A stretch of DNA of 64,000 bases, from NCBI RefSeq assembly GCF_014652535.1, contig NZ_BMYZ01000003.1, positions 372,001 to 436,000 on the forward strand, written 5' to 3'. Position numbers and translations under genes: made by a program. The stretch comes from Cellvibrio zantedeschiae. Its GTDB lineage: Bacteria > Pseudomonadota > Gammaproteobacteria > Pseudomonadales > Cellvibrionaceae. Shown here piece by piece: positions 43,142-60,198 of this stretch. Position 1 is the first letter of the stretch, and each line of letters opens with the position of its first letter. Under the pieces are notes generated by a model, which was not told where the DNA came from, searched no databases, and saw nothing but the letters and a program-made list of their open reading frames with translations.

Positions 43142-45577
<2,436 letters not shown>

Positions 45578-45689: not shown

Positions 45690-46790
45690 TCACGGACTAT
45701 GTTCAGTCACGCAACCTTGTTCCACGTGGAACATTTTTATCTCTGTTTCAGGCTTGTTGTGCCAGGATGACAGCAAACTATCCTGCTCTACCCCGGTGAT
45801 AAACACTTGGGTAGCCATGGCATCAAGCCAACGAGTCAGCAATTCACGATGCTTCTCGTCCAGCTCAGCCGGTAAATCATCAATCAAATACACAGTTTTA
45901 CGGCCAGTCATGCGTGAAAACACATAACCTTGGGCAATCTTAAGGGCACATACCAGTAGTTTTTGTTGGCCCCGGCTCAGTATTTCTGCCGCGTTTTGGC
46001 CGTTTACAGTAATGCGCAAGTCTGCCCTGTGGCTACCCATATGGGTATAACCTTGTTGACGATCGCGATCTATGCCTGCTGCCAGTACATCAGCATAGGA
46101 TTTTTCTTTATCCCAGCCTCGATAGTAGCCAATAGCAATACCATCAACACTGATAAATTCTTGTAGTAATTCGTAAAACGTTGTTTTAAATATCTCAAAA
46201 CACTCGGCTCTATAGAGGTGAAGCTGCTCTGTAAGCTGCACCAGCTCTTGATCCCAGGTCGATAACTCAAAGGGATCTATTCTATCATGCCGCAGCAGAC
46301 TGTTGCGGTGTTTCAAACAACGCTGGCAATCTTTCCAGGTTTGAAAGAATTTATGTTCCACGTGGAACACTAGCCAATCGATGAACTGCCTACGTACCTT
46401 TGGACTACCTTCTAACAGCAAAAAAGTATCTGAATTAATCGTCTGTACTGGAAGATAAGAAGCCAATACGGCAGCCGAACCTACCAAATTTCCATTAGCC
46501 TTAAAGCTGGCAGTTCCATCCAATTGCCGGTTTATACCGATTGGAACTTCTGCATGGTCATCAGCAAGTACTTTGCCGAAGATCGTAAACGCATTTTGGC
46601 CATTGGAAATAAGCGGTTTGTGCTTGTGGCTGCGGAAAGATCTCCCTAAAGCGAGCACATTAATCGCTTCCAAAACGCTGGTTTTACCAGAACCATTCTC
46701 GCCATAAATGAGATTAACCCGGTGGGATGGTTGTACATCCACCGAGTTAAGGTTGCGAAGGTTCTGGATAAAGAGACGTTTTAAGGTCAT
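45690..46790 (-). CDS. recF: RecF recombination/replication repair protein
   Basis: 366 residues. SMC-like ATPase that helps load RecA at gaps. Walker A GENGSGKTS lies near 30-38, the ABC-type signature ILSRGQQKLLVCALK near 270, and Walker B VYLIDDLPAELD follows. The coding sequence contains two perfect parS sites: one (46354-46369) encodes FHVE at about 142-145, the other (45718-45733) encodes FHVE at 354-357, in a C-terminal tail that ends EHSP. The ribosome site is weak; translation may be coupled to dnaN (gap 53 nt). Confidence 0.96.
   Translation of the reverse strand: MTLKRLFIQNLRNLNSVDVQPSHRVNLIYGENGSGKTSVLEAINVLALGRSFRSHKHKPLISNGQNAFTIFGKVLADDHAEVPIGINRQLDGTASFKANGNLVGSAAVLASYLPVQTINSDTFLLLEGSPKVRRQFIDWLVFHVEHKFFQTWKDCQRCLKHRNSLLRHDRIDPFELSTWDQELVQLTEQLHLYRAECFEIFKTTFYELLQEFISVDGIAIGYYRGWDKEKSYADVLAAGIDRDRQQGYTHMGSHRADLRITVNGQNAAEILSRGQQKLLVCALKIAQGYVFSRMTGRKTVYLIDDLPAELDEKHRELLTRWLDAMATQVFITGVEQDSLLSSWHNKPETEIKMFHVEQGCVTEHSP
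45718..45733. other. parS: parS centromere site 1
   Basis: TGTTCCACGTGGAACA, a perfect 16-bp palindrome identical to the bacterial parS consensus bound by ParB. It lies in the last codons of recF, about 13.5 kb from parB. Confidence 0.93.
46354..46369. other. parS: parS centromere site 2
   Basis: Second perfect copy of TGTTCCACGTGGAACA, 636 bp from the first, inside the middle of recF. Confidence 0.93.
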
Positions 46791-46843: not shown

Positions 46844-47947
46844 TTACAAGCGCATTGGCATAACAACATACAATGAATCACTGTTCTCTGGCTCTTCCAA
46901 AAGCGCACTGGAGTTAGCATCTGACAAAGTAATTTTTACATTTTCGTTTTGGATAACGTTAGTAACGTCTTGCAAGTAACTTACATTGAAGCCTACTTCC
47001 AAACTATCACCAGCATAATCCACAACAACTTGTTCTTCGGCTTCTTCCTGTTCCGGGTTGTTTGCAACGATTGTTAGCAAACCATCCGACAACAAAAGAC
47101 GCACGCCACGGTATTTTTCGTTCGACAAAATCGCGGTACGGCCAAAGGCCTGTTTCAATTCAATACGCGAACCAATAATAGTTTTGTTGCCACCGCGTGG
47201 AAGTACACGCTCGTATTCCGGGAATTTACCGTCTACCAATTTAGAGGTGAAGGTGTAATCCACAGAAGTAACACGAATATGGTTACCACTTAAAGTCACT
47301 TCAACTTGCGCCGTTGAATCATCCAAAAGACGGGATAATTCCAACACGCCTTTGCGCGGCAAAATTGCCTGGGTTACATCGGCAGTATCAACTGCAATTG
47401 CACGCGTACACATGGCCATGCGGTGACCGTCGGTTGCGACTACACGCAATTGATCCTGGCGAACTTCCCACAACATACCGTTTAAATAATAACGAACATC
47501 TTGTTGCGCCATGGCAAATGCAGTGCGCTCGATAAGACGTTTAACTTCTTGCTGCGCGCAGCTGAAACGCAAATTGCCGGGTGAATCTTCCACATTGGGG
47601 AAGTCTGAAGCTGGCAAAGTCGATAAAGTAAAACGGCTACGTCCTGATTTTAGAATTATGCGTTGATCTTCCTGGATAAACTCCAACTTAGAGCCATCTG
47701 GTAGCGATCTGCAGATATCTACCAACTTACGTGCTGGCACAGTGATTTCACCTGAGTCGCCGGCTTGCTCCAAATGAACACGACCAATAATTTCGACCTC
47801 AAGATCCGTACCCGTTAAGGAAAGTTGATCACCATTTAATACGATTAACACATTAGACAAAACGGGCAGCGTTTGACGACGCTCCACCACACCTGCAACC
47901 AATTGTAAGGGTTTAAGTAGCGCCTCGCGGGATACGACAAATTTCAT
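46844..47947 (-). CDS. dnaN: DNA polymerase III beta sliding clamp
   Basis: 367 residues, standard length. Three clamp domains; N-terminus MKFVVSREALLKPLQLV and C-terminus LYVVMPMRL are the family ends, and SGRSRFTLSTLPASDFP is the conserved domain 1 strand pair. AAGAG lies about 9 nt upstream of the ATG. It follows dnaA across a 213-nt gap that holds an intergenic repeat. Confidence 0.98.
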   Translation of the reverse strand: MKFVVSREALLKPLQLVAGVVERRQTLPVLSNVLIVLNGDQLSLTGTDLEVEIIGRVHLEQAGDSGEITVPARKLVDICRSLPDGSKLEFIQEDQRIILKSGRSRFTLSTLPASDFPNVEDSPGNLRFSCAQQEVKRLIERTAFAMAQQDVRYYLNGMLWEVRQDQLRVVATDGHRMAMCTRAIAVDTADVTQAILPRKGVLELSRLLDDSTAQVEVTLSGNHIRVTSVDYTFTSKLVDGKFPEYERVLPRGGNKTIIGSRIELKQAFGRTAILSNEKYRGVRLLLSDGLLTIVANNPEQEEAEEQVVVDYAGDSLEVGFNVSYLQDVTNVIQNENVKITLSDANSSALLEEPENSDSLYVVMPMRL

Positions 47948-48160: not shown

Positions 48161-49648
48161 TCAAGTTGTTAGCGACCGCAGCAAGTTTTTCATATCTTCG
48201 CGAATATCCGCGGTTTCTTCCTGCAATTCTTTAATTTTTCGGCAAGCGTGTAATACAGTGGTATGGTCGCGTCCACCAAAGGCTTCGCCGATTTCGGGCA
48301 AGCTGTGATTCGTTAATTCTTTCGCCAACGCCATAGCAACCTGGCGCGGTCGAGCTACCGAACGACTACGACGTTTGGACACCATATCGTTCATTTTTAT
48401 TTTGTAATACTCACAAACGACTTTCTGGATATTGTCGATACCGACTTGTTTATCCTGCAACGCTAATAAGTCTTTTAGTGCTTCGCGTACCAGTTCGACA
48501 TCAATCGCACGACCAGTAAAATTCGCACTCGCGATTACACGTTTCAGAGCGCCTTCAAGGTCACGTACATTAGCGCGAATTCGTTGCGCAATAAAGAAGG
48601 CGGCATCGTGTGGTAACTCTATATTTACCTGCTCGGCCTTCTTCATCAAAATCGCCACACGAGTTTCCAGTTCAGGCGGTTCTACCGCAACCGTCAAACC
48701 CCAACCGAAGCGCGATTTTAAGCGCTCTTCCAAACCATTAATTTCTTTGGGGAAGCGATCACAAGTGAGAATAATTTGGCGACCACCTTCCAGCAGTGAA
48801 TTGAAGGTATGGAAGAATTCTTCTTGCGAACGCTCTTTACCGGCGAAGAACTGGATGTCATCGATAAGGAGTGCGTCCATGGAACGGTAATAGCGTTTGA
48901 AATCGTTGATCGCATTTAATTGCAGCGCTTTCACCATATCCGCCACAAAACGCTCGGAATGGAGATACACCACTTTGGCATTGGGATTTTTCGCAACCAG
49001 CGCATTACCCACGGCTTGCATCAAGTGGGTCTTACCCAAACCTACGCCGCCATATATAAAGAGGGGGTTGTAGGCACCGCCGGGATTTTCTGCCACCTGG
49101 CGGGCCGCAGCCAAACCTAACTGGTTGGACTTACCTTCTACGAAAGTTGCAAAGGTAGATGCAGCATTTAAATAGTTGCTGTGTTTTAAACCGCCTTCAA
49201 CTTCTGCCTCTTGGGCAACTCGCTGGGAGTCATCGTTGGAGCGTCGGGATTTTTCAGGCACCTCTTCTGGCTTGGGTTCTATATAAGGAGCAGCGGGTGT
49301 TGCTTCCTTTATAGTAGATATAGAAGAAGCAAGTGAATTTACCGAATTCGAGGGCGCCACACTGATTGGTGAGCGAACTTGCTCAAAGGCCGCTTGGGGT
49401 TTTGCACCTACAGCAATAACCACCGATAAATGTGAGCCTTCCTGAAAATGAGCAACTAATTCTTTAATACGGGTTAAAAACTTCTCTTCCACCCAATTGC
49501 TGATAAAACGGTTAGGGGCCAACAAACGCAATTCATTGGGGCTTGCCACTTCGTCAATTTGCAAGGGTTTAATCCAGGTGTTGAACTGCTGCGAAGGCAA
49601 TTCATCCTGCAAACTGGATGCGCATAATTTCCAAACTGACTGCGACAA
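48161..49648 (-). CDS. dnaA: Chromosomal replication initiator DnaA
   Basis: 495 residues. Domain I (WIKPLQ near the N-terminus), a variable domain II (about 85-155), AAA+ domain III with Walker A GGVGLGKT at 200-207 and [21 protein letters not shown], and domain IV with the box-binding signature [15 protein letters not shown]. Start is TTG at 49648, with GGGAG 8 nt upstream. An ATG start is not available nearby; the rare codon may limit DnaA level. Confidence 0.97.
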
Positions 49649-50023
49649 AGGTGAAACTCCCGACGATCTTATCTATATATAGGACTGCAAACCTACATCT
49701 ATGTACGCAGGCCAAAAAATAGCCAAAAACGCCACATAAAATGGGTTATACAGAGGTTTTTAGGGAATGAATTTTTAAGAAAAGGCAGTGTACTCCCAAC
49801 CTATAAAGTTATCCACAGTTAGACTATAAATCTCTGCAATAATTTTTAATGACTATTCAAAGTGCTAAAAATTCAACAACTTATGATTTGCTTAAAAAAT
49901 AAACTAAAAATCCTTATCACCTATAAACTGTGGATAAACCTGTTGATATAGTATGGATAAACTGAGTGTAAGCAGTGATTATTAACACTCTGCGAGTAAA
50001 TAGGGCATTTAAGTGAAAACTGT
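49649..50023. other. dnaA-rpmH intergenic region with DnaA boxes (origin candidate 1)
   Basis: AT-rich region with TTATCCACA at 49809-49817, an inverted box TGTGGATAA at 49929-49937 and a near-match TATGGATAA about 20 nt further on. In Pseudomonas the origin lies in this gap. It may be oriC or the DnaA-controlled dnaA promoter. Confidence 0.6.
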
Positions 50024-54876: not shown

Positions 54877-55555
54877 ATAAGCCTCTTAAATAAATTTTTT
54901 AGTTTATTTTCCGGGATTTAGACAGCAGCTTTATAGATGGTAAATCCTGATCTAAAAACCAAAACATTCCAGTAACAGACATGTTTATACAAAGTTATTT
55001 TCATGTTTTTCCACACACTTACACAGGTTATCCACAAAAAAATAGAGATTTACGCCATAAATAACTGTTTTTACTGGGGTTTTAATAATTATTCACATTT
55101 GTGTGTGTAATTCTGTGGGGTCTCTGCATAAAAGCTTGCGATACTTTTGGGGATAACTCAGATCTCTGGCGTCGCTTGTATAACTTAGGCTTTCATTGAC
55201 AGCTTATTTTCAACTTAGCAGTAGCTTTTGAGCATCTTTCCCTAAGGGTTTTCCTTCTAATATGCCATTGAAAAATATATAAATATTATCCTTATCCACA
55301 GATTTCCTTTCGCATATTAATTACAACATCTTTTAACCTTCTAAATATCTCTATATATATTTATTTAAATATTTTCCTCTGTTGTAACAGAATAAGTTTT
55401 CGTGCAAAAAATAAGCTGATTAAACCCTGTACATGTTTTGTGCAATTGCTCAACTCGCTCTATAATGCGTGCCCTTTTCCAAAAAGCCGTTTTTGCGGTT
55501 TCTTGGATAGTGCCCAACGTATTAACACGCAGCTGCGCTGCAAGGTTGTTGCTCG
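54877..55555. other. Origin candidate 2: DnaA boxes and AT-rich stretch upstream of mnmG
   Basis: 679 nt without a gene. It contains TTATCCACA at 55028-55036 and 55292-55300, TTTTCCACA at 55007-55015, and an inverted TTATCCCCA at 55148-55156. The stretch 55265-55385 is very AT-rich (runs such as ATATATATTTATTTAAATATT), as expected for an unwinding element. In E. coli oriC also lies beside mnmG (gidA). Confidence 0.7.
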
Positions 55556-58396: not shown

Positions 58397-58444
58397 TCGA
58401 ATTCACAAATACTGAAAACCACCTTGTGGTTAAAGGATTTTCAC

Positions 58445-59248
58445 TTGACCAAGATATACGCTATTGCAAATCAGAAAGGTGGTGTGGGTAAAACTACAAC
58501 CTGTGTGAATCTTGCCGCTTCGTTGGTTGCGACCAAAAAGCGTGTCTTGCTGGTGGATTTGGATCCACAAGGCAACGCCACTATGGGCAGTGGTGTGAAT
58601 AAAAATGAAATTGAAAAATCGATTTACGATGTACTCACCGAGCGTGAATCTATTAAAGATTGTCTAGTGCTTTCTGAAAGCGGAAAGTATCAAGTGCTGC
58701 CCGCGAATGGTGACCTGACAGCTGCGGAAGTTGAAATGCTTGCGCTCGATAATAAAGAGCGCCGTTTGCAAAATGCATTGAATCAAGTGAAAGATGATTT
58801 CGATTATATTTTGATTGACTGCCCTCCATCGCTCAATATGCTCACGCTGAATGCCATGACCGCATGCAACGGTGTGATCATTGCGATGCAATGTGAATAC
58901 TACGCGCTTGAAGGTTTGTCGGCCTTAGTGAATACCATCAACCAAATCCAGCGCGTGTTGAATCCCGACTTAAAAATCGAAGGCCTGTTGCGTACCATGT
59001 ACGATCCGCGCAACAGTTTGACCAACGATGTGTCAGCACAATTAACGCAACATTTTGGCGATAGACTTTATCGCACCTGCATTCCGCGCAATGTGCGCCT
59101 GGCGGAAGCGCCAAGTTTTGGTATGCCGGTTCTGGCGTTTGATCGTCAGTCCAAAGGTGCCATTGCGTACCTTGCATTAGCCGGCGAAATTTTGCGTCGC
59201 AATGAAGCCGCAAGCAAATCAGCTCCAGCAGCTGAAGCCGCGCACTAA
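58445..59248 (+). CDS. parA: Chromosome segregation ATPase ParA (Soj)
   Basis: 267 residues. Walker A KGGVGKTTT near the N-terminus, Walker A' VLLVDLDPQGNAT, Walker B DYILIDCPPSLN. Start is a TTG with AAGGA 8 nt upstream, which gives the usual MTKIYAIANQKGGVGKT; no ATG is near. It acts with ParB and parS to segregate origins. The gap to parB is 38 nt. Confidence 0.97.
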   Translation: MTKIYAIANQKGGVGKTTTCVNLAASLVATKKRVLLVDLDPQGNATMGSGVNKNEIEKSIYDVLTERESIKDCLVLSESGKYQVLPANGDLTAAEVEMLALDNKERRLQNALNQVKDDFDYILIDCPPSLNMLTLNAMTACNGVIIAMQCEYYALEGLSALVNTINQIQRVLNPDLKIEGLLRTMYDPRNSLTNDVSAQLTQHFGDRLYRTCIPRNVRLAEAPSFGMPVLAFDRQSKGAIAYLALAGEILRRNEAASKSAPAAEAAH

Positions 59249-59286: not shown

Positions 59287-60198
59287 ATGTCGACAAAACG
59301 TAAAGGCTTGGGTAAAGGATTGGATGCACTTTTGAGTGCAGGTCTTGGCGTAACCGCGCCGGCGCCGGAAATGCCGCTGGTACCGAGCGACCAGGATGCA
59401 AAACTCGAATACAAAGATGGCAAGCTTGCACATTTACCGGTAGAAATTATCCAGCGCGGAAAATACCAACCGCGTCGCGATATGCACCCTGAAGCTTTGG
59501 AAGAATTGTCCGAGTCCATCAAAGTTCAGGGCGTTATGCAGCCGATTGTGGTACGCCCGATTGGTGAAGGCCGCTATGAGATTATCGCCGGTGAACGCCG
59601 CTGGCGCGCGACCCAATTAGCCGGTCTGGATAAAATCCCGGCGGTGATTCGCGATGTTCCCGATGAAGCTGCCATCGCTATGGCACTGATCGAAAACATC
59701 CAGCGCGAAAATTTAAATCCAATCGAAGAGGCCGTTGCGCTTAAGCGACTGCAAGACGAATTTGAATTAACGCATGCGGAAGTGGCGCAAGCTGTGGGTA
59801 AATCCCGTGCGACTGTAACAAACCTCTTGCGTTTGATTGCGCTCAATGACGAAGTCAAAACTTTGCTGGAACATGGCGACCTGGAAATGGGCCATGCTCG
59901 CGCTATCCTGACCTTGGAAGCCGCTGCCCAGCGTGACATTGCCCGTCAGATTGTGGCCAAAGGTTTATCGGTTCGCCAGACCGAAGCTTTGGTTCGCGTG
60001 TATCAGGAAGGCAAGAAAGACGAAAAGGTCAAACCGGATAACCAACCTTCTGCGGATATCCGCCGTCTGGAAAACAGTCTTTCGGAAAAATTGGGTGCGG
60101 CGGTTGAAATCCAGCATGGCACCAAGGGCAAGGGCAAGTTAGTGATTACTTATAACTCGCTGGATGAACTGGACGGCATTTTGGGGCATATCCAATAA
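59287..60198 (+). CDS. parB: Chromosome partitioning protein ParB (Spo0J)
   Basis: 303 residues. N-terminal ParA-contact stretch (RKGLGKGLDALL), ParB/Srx CTPase domain with IQRGKYQPRRDM and the box GERRWRA, a helix-turn-helix for parS (HAEVAQAVGKSRATVTNLLRL), and a C-terminal dimer domain. Its targets are the two parS sites at 45.7 and 46.4 kb. Confidence 0.97.
   Translation: MSTKRKGLGKGLDALLSAGLGVTAPAPEMPLVPSDQDAKLEYKDGKLAHLPVEIIQRGKYQPRRDMHPEALEELSESIKVQGVMQPIVVRPIGEGRYEIIAGERRWRATQLAGLDKIPAVIRDVPDEAAIAMALIENIQRENLNPIEEAVALKRLQDEFELTHAEVAQAVGKSRATVTNLLRLIALNDEVKTLLEHGDLEMGHARAILTLEAAAQRDIARQIVAKGLSVRQTEALVRVYQEGKKDEKVKPDNQPSADIRRLENSLSEKLGAAVEIQHGTKGKGKLVITYNSLDELDGILGHIQ

Follow-up and report, generated by a model that had tools for sequence, protein, structure and literature searches.

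The window analysed here, a stretch of 64,000 nucleotides from Cellvibrio zantedeschiae, contains recF, which in this genome is located between gyrB and dnaN, together with dnaA, two possible replication origins and a parA-parB pair. Two 16-bp palindromes that fit the parS consensus lie within the recF coding sequence. The features are as follows:

43142..45574, minus strand: gyrB, neighbouring gene (NF011501 1314.6 bits, TIGR01059 996.2 bits)
45690..46790, minus strand: recF, host gene of both sites (366 aa; TIGR00611 349.3 bits, above the curated cut-off of 172)
45718..45733, no strand assigned: parS-like site 2, a palindrome over recF codons 353-358 (F354 H355 V356 E357); exact match, conserved in place and frame, codons locked
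46354..46369, no strand assigned: parS-like site 1, a palindrome over recF codons 141-146 (F142 H143 V144 E145); exact match, conserved in place and frame, codons locked
46844..47947, minus strand: dnaN, neighbouring gene (TIGR00663 349.2 bits)
48161..49648, minus strand: dnaA, neighbouring gene (TIGR00362 606.9 bits)
49809..49960, no strand assigned: cluster of DnaA-box-like sequences upstream of dnaA, possible oriC (3 boxes at ≤1 mismatch; 3.4 kb from site 1)
55007..55300, no strand assigned: cluster of DnaA-box-like sequences upstream of mnmG, possible oriC (5 boxes at ≤1 mismatch; 8.6 kb from site 1)
58424..59248, plus strand: parA, partition ATPase, adjoining parB (best family ParA_partition NF041546, 111 bits, below the cut-off of 180)
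59287..60198, plus strand: parB, predicted reader of the sites (TIGR00180 204.3 bits, cut-off 58.45; parS-contact residues according to the available text of PMC7383237)

An exact search of the window finds TGTTCCACGTGGAACA at 45718-45733 and at 46354-46369, without a mismatch in either copy and 636 bp apart, as an earlier note on this DNA had claimed, and the TIGR00611 assignment bears out that both are in recF. With up to three mismatches allowed, the window holds four matches against 0.16 expected, a number that none of 100 shuffles of the window reached, and the source assembly (4,270,684 bases in 12 contigs) contains no third such site at two mismatches or fewer. Chance matches were rejected as an explanation, and their probability is negligible, given two exact 16-mers at this spacing, no other one genome-wide, and both sites in all 110 family loci described below. 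Each site opens on the second codon base, which gives the two the common reading xTG TTC CAC GTG GAA CAx, i.e. FHVE, at residues 142-145 and 354-357, so that the shared codon frame proposed in the earlier note is real.

A cognate parA-parB pair is encoded on the same chromosome, 12 to 14.5 kb from the recF sites (about 12-14 kb had been proposed), parA being assigned by its best family though under the cut-off. Besides, the sites are near a putative replication origin, i.e. 3.4 and 8.6 kb from the DnaA-box clusters and beside dnaA-dnaN-gyrB. ParB residues that contact parS are listed in the available text of PMC7383237; the window's ParB carries the parS-reading motifs GKSR....N and GHAR, whose spacing matches G170, K171, S172, R173, N178, G201 and R204 in a numbering fitted to the motifs rather than to an alignment with Caulobacter ParB.

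Within the family Cellvibrionaceae, 141 of 144 genomes have a RecF match, and the loci of 110 of these 141 were read. All 110 possess two parS-like sites (three or fewer mismatches to the exact 16-mer), which occupy homologous positions and share one phase; this excludes the absence from all close relatives that the earlier note had considered. Counted over the 144 whole genomes, KGTTYCACGTGRAACM occurs twice in 136, once in four, three times in one and not at all in three, the latter being the three without a RecF match. Exactly two KGTTYCACGTGRAACM sites, both inside the recF open reading frame, were present in 105 of the 110 loci, and the same genomes hold two in total; recF therefore holds every such site there. 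As to individual loci, the recF frame of L070 (genome G025) is broken, its two perfect parS sites being 554 instead of 636 bp apart and the second falling outside the shortened frame, which reflects either a lesion or faulty assembly (230 contigs). RecF is enlarged to 444 and 459 aa in L129 (G114) and L130 (G111), where the sites are 864 and 801 bp apart and both are kept. L132 (G123) is alone among the family loci read in carrying an extra site of the KGTTYCACGTGRAACM pattern outside recF, a third parS-like site ∼1.1 kb upstream of the recF start.

The codon comparison among relatives suggested in the earlier note was run on 109 family recF genes, on whose tree the codons of H143, V144, H355 and V356 did not change once. 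Of the 68 columns in which a single residue reaches 90% of the rows, the only other column with zero steps was V141, which is GTG in all 108 rows with valine and whose TG belongs to site 1. Conserved columns outside the sites took at least 11 steps (median 40.5 over 62 columns, column 141 counted among them). The phenylalanine codons of the sites changed 13 and 14 times (TTT or TTC, both compatible with parS), while residues 145 and 357 were encoded by GAA or AAA only (E or K), with 8 and 12 changes; at the edges, position 353 read xTG in 105 and position 358 CAx in 107 of the 109 rows. The bias extends to 263 genes from ParB-positive genomes, where valine was GTG in 220 of 221 cases at position 144 and in 246 of 249 at position 356, against 34.5% of 5456 other valines, and histidine was CAC in 232 of 251 and 229 of 247 cases at the two sites, against 39.3% of 2473 others. 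When 112 well-filled columns were ranked by codon bias, the top six (144, 356, 141, 355, 143, 357) were all site columns, and column 145 came eighth. We also found a hint, and only that, of covariation inside the palindrome, with relatedness not removed: the third base of the phenylalanine codon and the first base of the E/K codon were C-G in 100, C-A in 0, T-G in 66 and T-A in 51 genes at site 1, and in 95, 7, 73 and 53, respectively, at site 2. Like codon pairs elsewhere went in the same direction, albeit more weakly (odds 2.8, p 0.008, kinship likewise not removed), and among the rows of the single order described below the covariation was not significant (p 1.0 and 0.36).

These data bear on a reading in which the RecF protein itself demands FHVE at both places and the parS match is a by-product of the peptide. 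A peptide fixes no codons, yet GTG and CAC are near-exclusive at the sites and not one of these codons changed in the family; for the codons, a protein-only constraint was thus rejected. For the residues, we compared 289 genes. As an exact core fixes the residues by definition, the informative rows are those without it, 72 for site 1 and 61 for site 2. Several residues were retained in these rows (F142 in 69 of 72, H143 in 57 of 72, F354 in 54 of 61, V356 in 38 of 61), as a demand by the protein would have it, and in four Pseudomonas loci (L355, L362, L365, L368) that kept site 2, FHVE is still read at site 1 although the DNA there has decayed, so residues can outlast the DNA site. Besides, in an alignment of 20 RecFs, E. 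coli included, F354, V356 and G359 never vary, H355 as well as E357 are at least 90% conserved, and the linker before and the end after site 2 are variable. Site 2 hence sits in a conserved island, not in a variable tail as the earlier note had it. On the other hand, position 144 was valine in just 4 of the 72 genes without the site 1 core, three of the four being one- or two-base variants of the site, and E and K swap freely at the fourth residue, which together with the codon data leaves a peptide by-product very improbable.

F142, H143, F354 and V356 look like largely RecF's own residues, as judged from these comparisons. Position 355, in turn, was histidine in 25 of the 61 genes without the site 2 core, and 19 of the 25 carried CATGTG or CACATG. 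Since the former four persist without the core and V144 and H355 mostly do not, RecF may have offered two places where the palindrome was cheap, and the palindrome would then have set the remaining residues. The earlier suggestion that the centromere shaped the RecF sequence is supported by the locked codons and by V144, which is mostly lost without the core, though those four residues are largely RecF's own. It could be objected that this is an ordinary parS, inherited within recF as it is in P. aeruginosa, where parS sites within recF are known (PMC3909081, PMC5521831), and that the RecF residues are compatible with it without having been shaped by it; after all, RecF offers F-H and F-x-V of its own. 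We deem this unlikely, because the residues at 144 and 355 vary with the presence or absence of the sites, and E alternates with K as the palindrome allows.

To see how far the arrangement extends, we consider the class, for which 276 genomes were drawn evenly, 233 of them with a RecF match (a few weak). The 109 recF loci read stem almost entirely from the top part of the list ordered by score and therefore lean towards better matches; at two or fewer mismatches to TGTTYCACGTGRAACA, recF held two sites in 85 of them, three in one, one in 17 and none in six, and in one of the single-site loci (L158) the contig ends before site 2. ParB status in this set means any TIGR00180 match and may count plasmid proteins. 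On that definition, the exact 14-base core GTTYCACGTGRAAC was present at both places in 81 of the 105 ParB-positive genomes, at site 1 only in 10, at site 2 only in six and at neither in eight, compared with none, none at site 1 only, one at site 2 only and three with neither among the four ParB-negative genomes. Among named genomes (the best 80 of 532 relatives), both recF sites were found at two or fewer mismatches in 66, one in six and none in eight, and every site found was in the FHVE phase. The genomes with both include Pseudomonas aeruginosa PA7, P. syringae, Azotobacter vinelandii and Chromohalobacter sarecensis; the eight without a recF site comprise four Marinomonas, Marinobacterium lutimaris, Neptuniibacter caesariensis, Salinicola salarius and one Oceanospirillales MAG. 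In named Halomonas, Pseudomonas and their kin (L375, L398, L403-L405, L408, L410, L419, L420), we observed an additional exact parS-like site, the third, near the gyrB end and ∼3.6 kb downstream of the recF start. A phylum scan with TGGNNNNTGTTYCACGTGRAA (W..FHV[EK]) matched 70 of 397 genomes, seven of them outside the class, and recF was absent within ∼1.5 kb of the match in all six out-of-class loci read (G674 is not among the six); it was present in 22 and absent in two of 24 in-class loci returned. As this pattern demands the tryptophan and the exact core, the phylum scan is a narrow test.

Loss of ParB was followed in one order, that of a ParB-less member of the class, with 148 genomes, of which 140 had a RecF match and 116 matched the window's ParB. 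The loci read comprised 70 recF genes, 30 taken by score and 40 chosen so that ParB-bearing and ParB-less families were both represented. To these was added E. coli K-12, counted as ParB-negative on the basis that Enterobacteriaceae lack par genes (PMC3909081, available text); any other genome was scored ParB-negative when the ParB search gave nothing or, in 6 genomes, a weak best match of 27 to 71 bits. None of the 22 ParB-negative genomes had an exact core at either recF place, three of them showing TGTTCCGCGTGGAACA at site 2, which reads FRVE, and six scanned whole contained no KGTTYCAYGTGRAACM sites. Among the 49 ParB-positive genomes, 17 had both cores, 14 site 2 only and 18 neither; of these 18, 14 carried TGTTYCATGTGGAACA at site 2, and in the four of the 14 that were scanned whole, canonical parS occurred elsewhere, which fits a centromere that has moved. 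On a RecF tree of 185 rows, the direction of ParB and site loss was mostly as expected, with ParB changing only about five times and three independent pairs of ParB loss and site loss on supported branches (five on all). With so few independent events, the association cannot reach significance; that site loss goes with ParB loss is suggestive and not significant.

Besides loss, there are hints of joint change. Three small genomes of 1.5-1.7 Mb, G165 (L151), G146 (L165) and G305 (L230), carry CATGTG or CACATG in both recF sites. A whole-genome scan of G165 finds no KGTTYCAYGTGRAACM sites beyond the two in recF, and L and K stand in its ParB in place of K171 and R204 of the window's ParB. Position 171 is R also in G150. 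In these lineages, which number only three, ParB and the recF sites may thus have changed together.

We favour the view, at a probability of roughly 0.9, that the two recF sites are chromosomal parS and that selection for ParB binding fixes their codons and dictates some RecF residues. By analogy with parS1 and parS2 of P. aeruginosa, ParB would bind both sites in C. zantedeschiae, close as a clamp and spread over recF and its neighbours; once replication is over, ParA would move apart the origin region that ParB covers. As both sites are embedded in a gene, the selection that maintains ParB binding would constrain codons and residues alike: it would fix CAC GTG at both sites, leave TTY as the only phenylalanine codons and GAA or AAA (E or K) as the only choices for the fourth residue, and thereby dictate V144 together with E/K145 and, at the C-terminal site, H355 together with E/K357. 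Most of the gammaproteobacterial recF genes read have this arrangement, which would have been lost where ParB was lost or parS moved. Counting against this view, both exact cores are missing in 18 of the 49 ParB-positive genomes of the order and in 8 of the 105 of the class set.

Alternatively, the sites might mainly regulate the dnaA-dnaN-recF-gyrB region via ParB, with segregation served otherwise. An excess of ParB does lower expression near parS1-4 in P. aeruginosa, but the available text of the same study has genes beside the intragenic parS1/parS2 not raised in parB-null or parS mutants (PMC5521831). Moreover, as the source genome has no other site at two or fewer mismatches, ParABS segregation would lack any other canonical site, and we regard a mainly regulatory role as highly improbable. 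Returning to the parS reading, the recF sites across the Gammaproteobacteria probably share common ancestry. A bolder version, which we consider more probable than not, is that recF has been the centromere since early Gammaproteobacteria, normally the sole one in a whole family, that the DNA preference of ParB decides which residues RecF has and even what charge they carry, and that ParB and the recF sites change together.

If true, this would be a clear natural case of a chromosome-level DNA function that fixes synonymous codons as well as amino acids of an unrelated protein across much of a class, and the placement of parS sites would become testable by silent recoding. Deleting recF in such species would then remove the centromere too, and the phenotypes of recF knock-outs would therefore mix repair and segregation. 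It would further provide a sign, readable from sequence, of where a centromere is located and of when it moved.

The phenomenon is wider than the earlier note reported. According to the available literature, parS, ParABS and the presence of parS in P. aeruginosa recF are already known. In the open-access literature searched, which does not include the parS survey of Livny et al. 2007, we found no published account of a class-wide, codon-locked parS in recF; neither a double coding role of two fixed codon positions across most of the class nor recF-only parS in most of the family was found described. The available passages on the recF parS sites of P. aeruginosa mention neither conservation in other genera nor an effect on RecF. 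As regards the host protein, the source recF encodes an ordinary RecF recombination mediator by family score, yet it differs in holding two sites that fix codons and apparently some residues, E. coli RecF reading FHNE and FTVE where the source RecF reads FHVE twice. The closest likeness is with P. aeruginosa, whose parS1 and parS2 lie within recF (PMC3909081, PMC5521831); the recF sites of strain PA7, at offsets 421 and 1051, occupy the same codons and share the phase seen in the source recF. ParB occupies P. aeruginosa parS1-parS4 in vivo (PMC10419367), and intragenic parS sites have been altered without protein change, though the available text does not name recF (PMC4368675). PAO1 differs in having extra parS near oriC (parS3, parS4) and six more degenerate ones (PMC4368675), whereas the source genome has the recF pair only, at two or fewer mismatches. 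The parS sites of Bacillus subtilis and Caulobacter belong to the same class of ParB-read palindromic 16-mers (PMC4368675, PMC7383237) but are placed otherwise than in the source genome, with one echo: in Caulobacter, recF-gyrB is one of two hot spots for inserted, as opposed to native, parS (PMC5815017).
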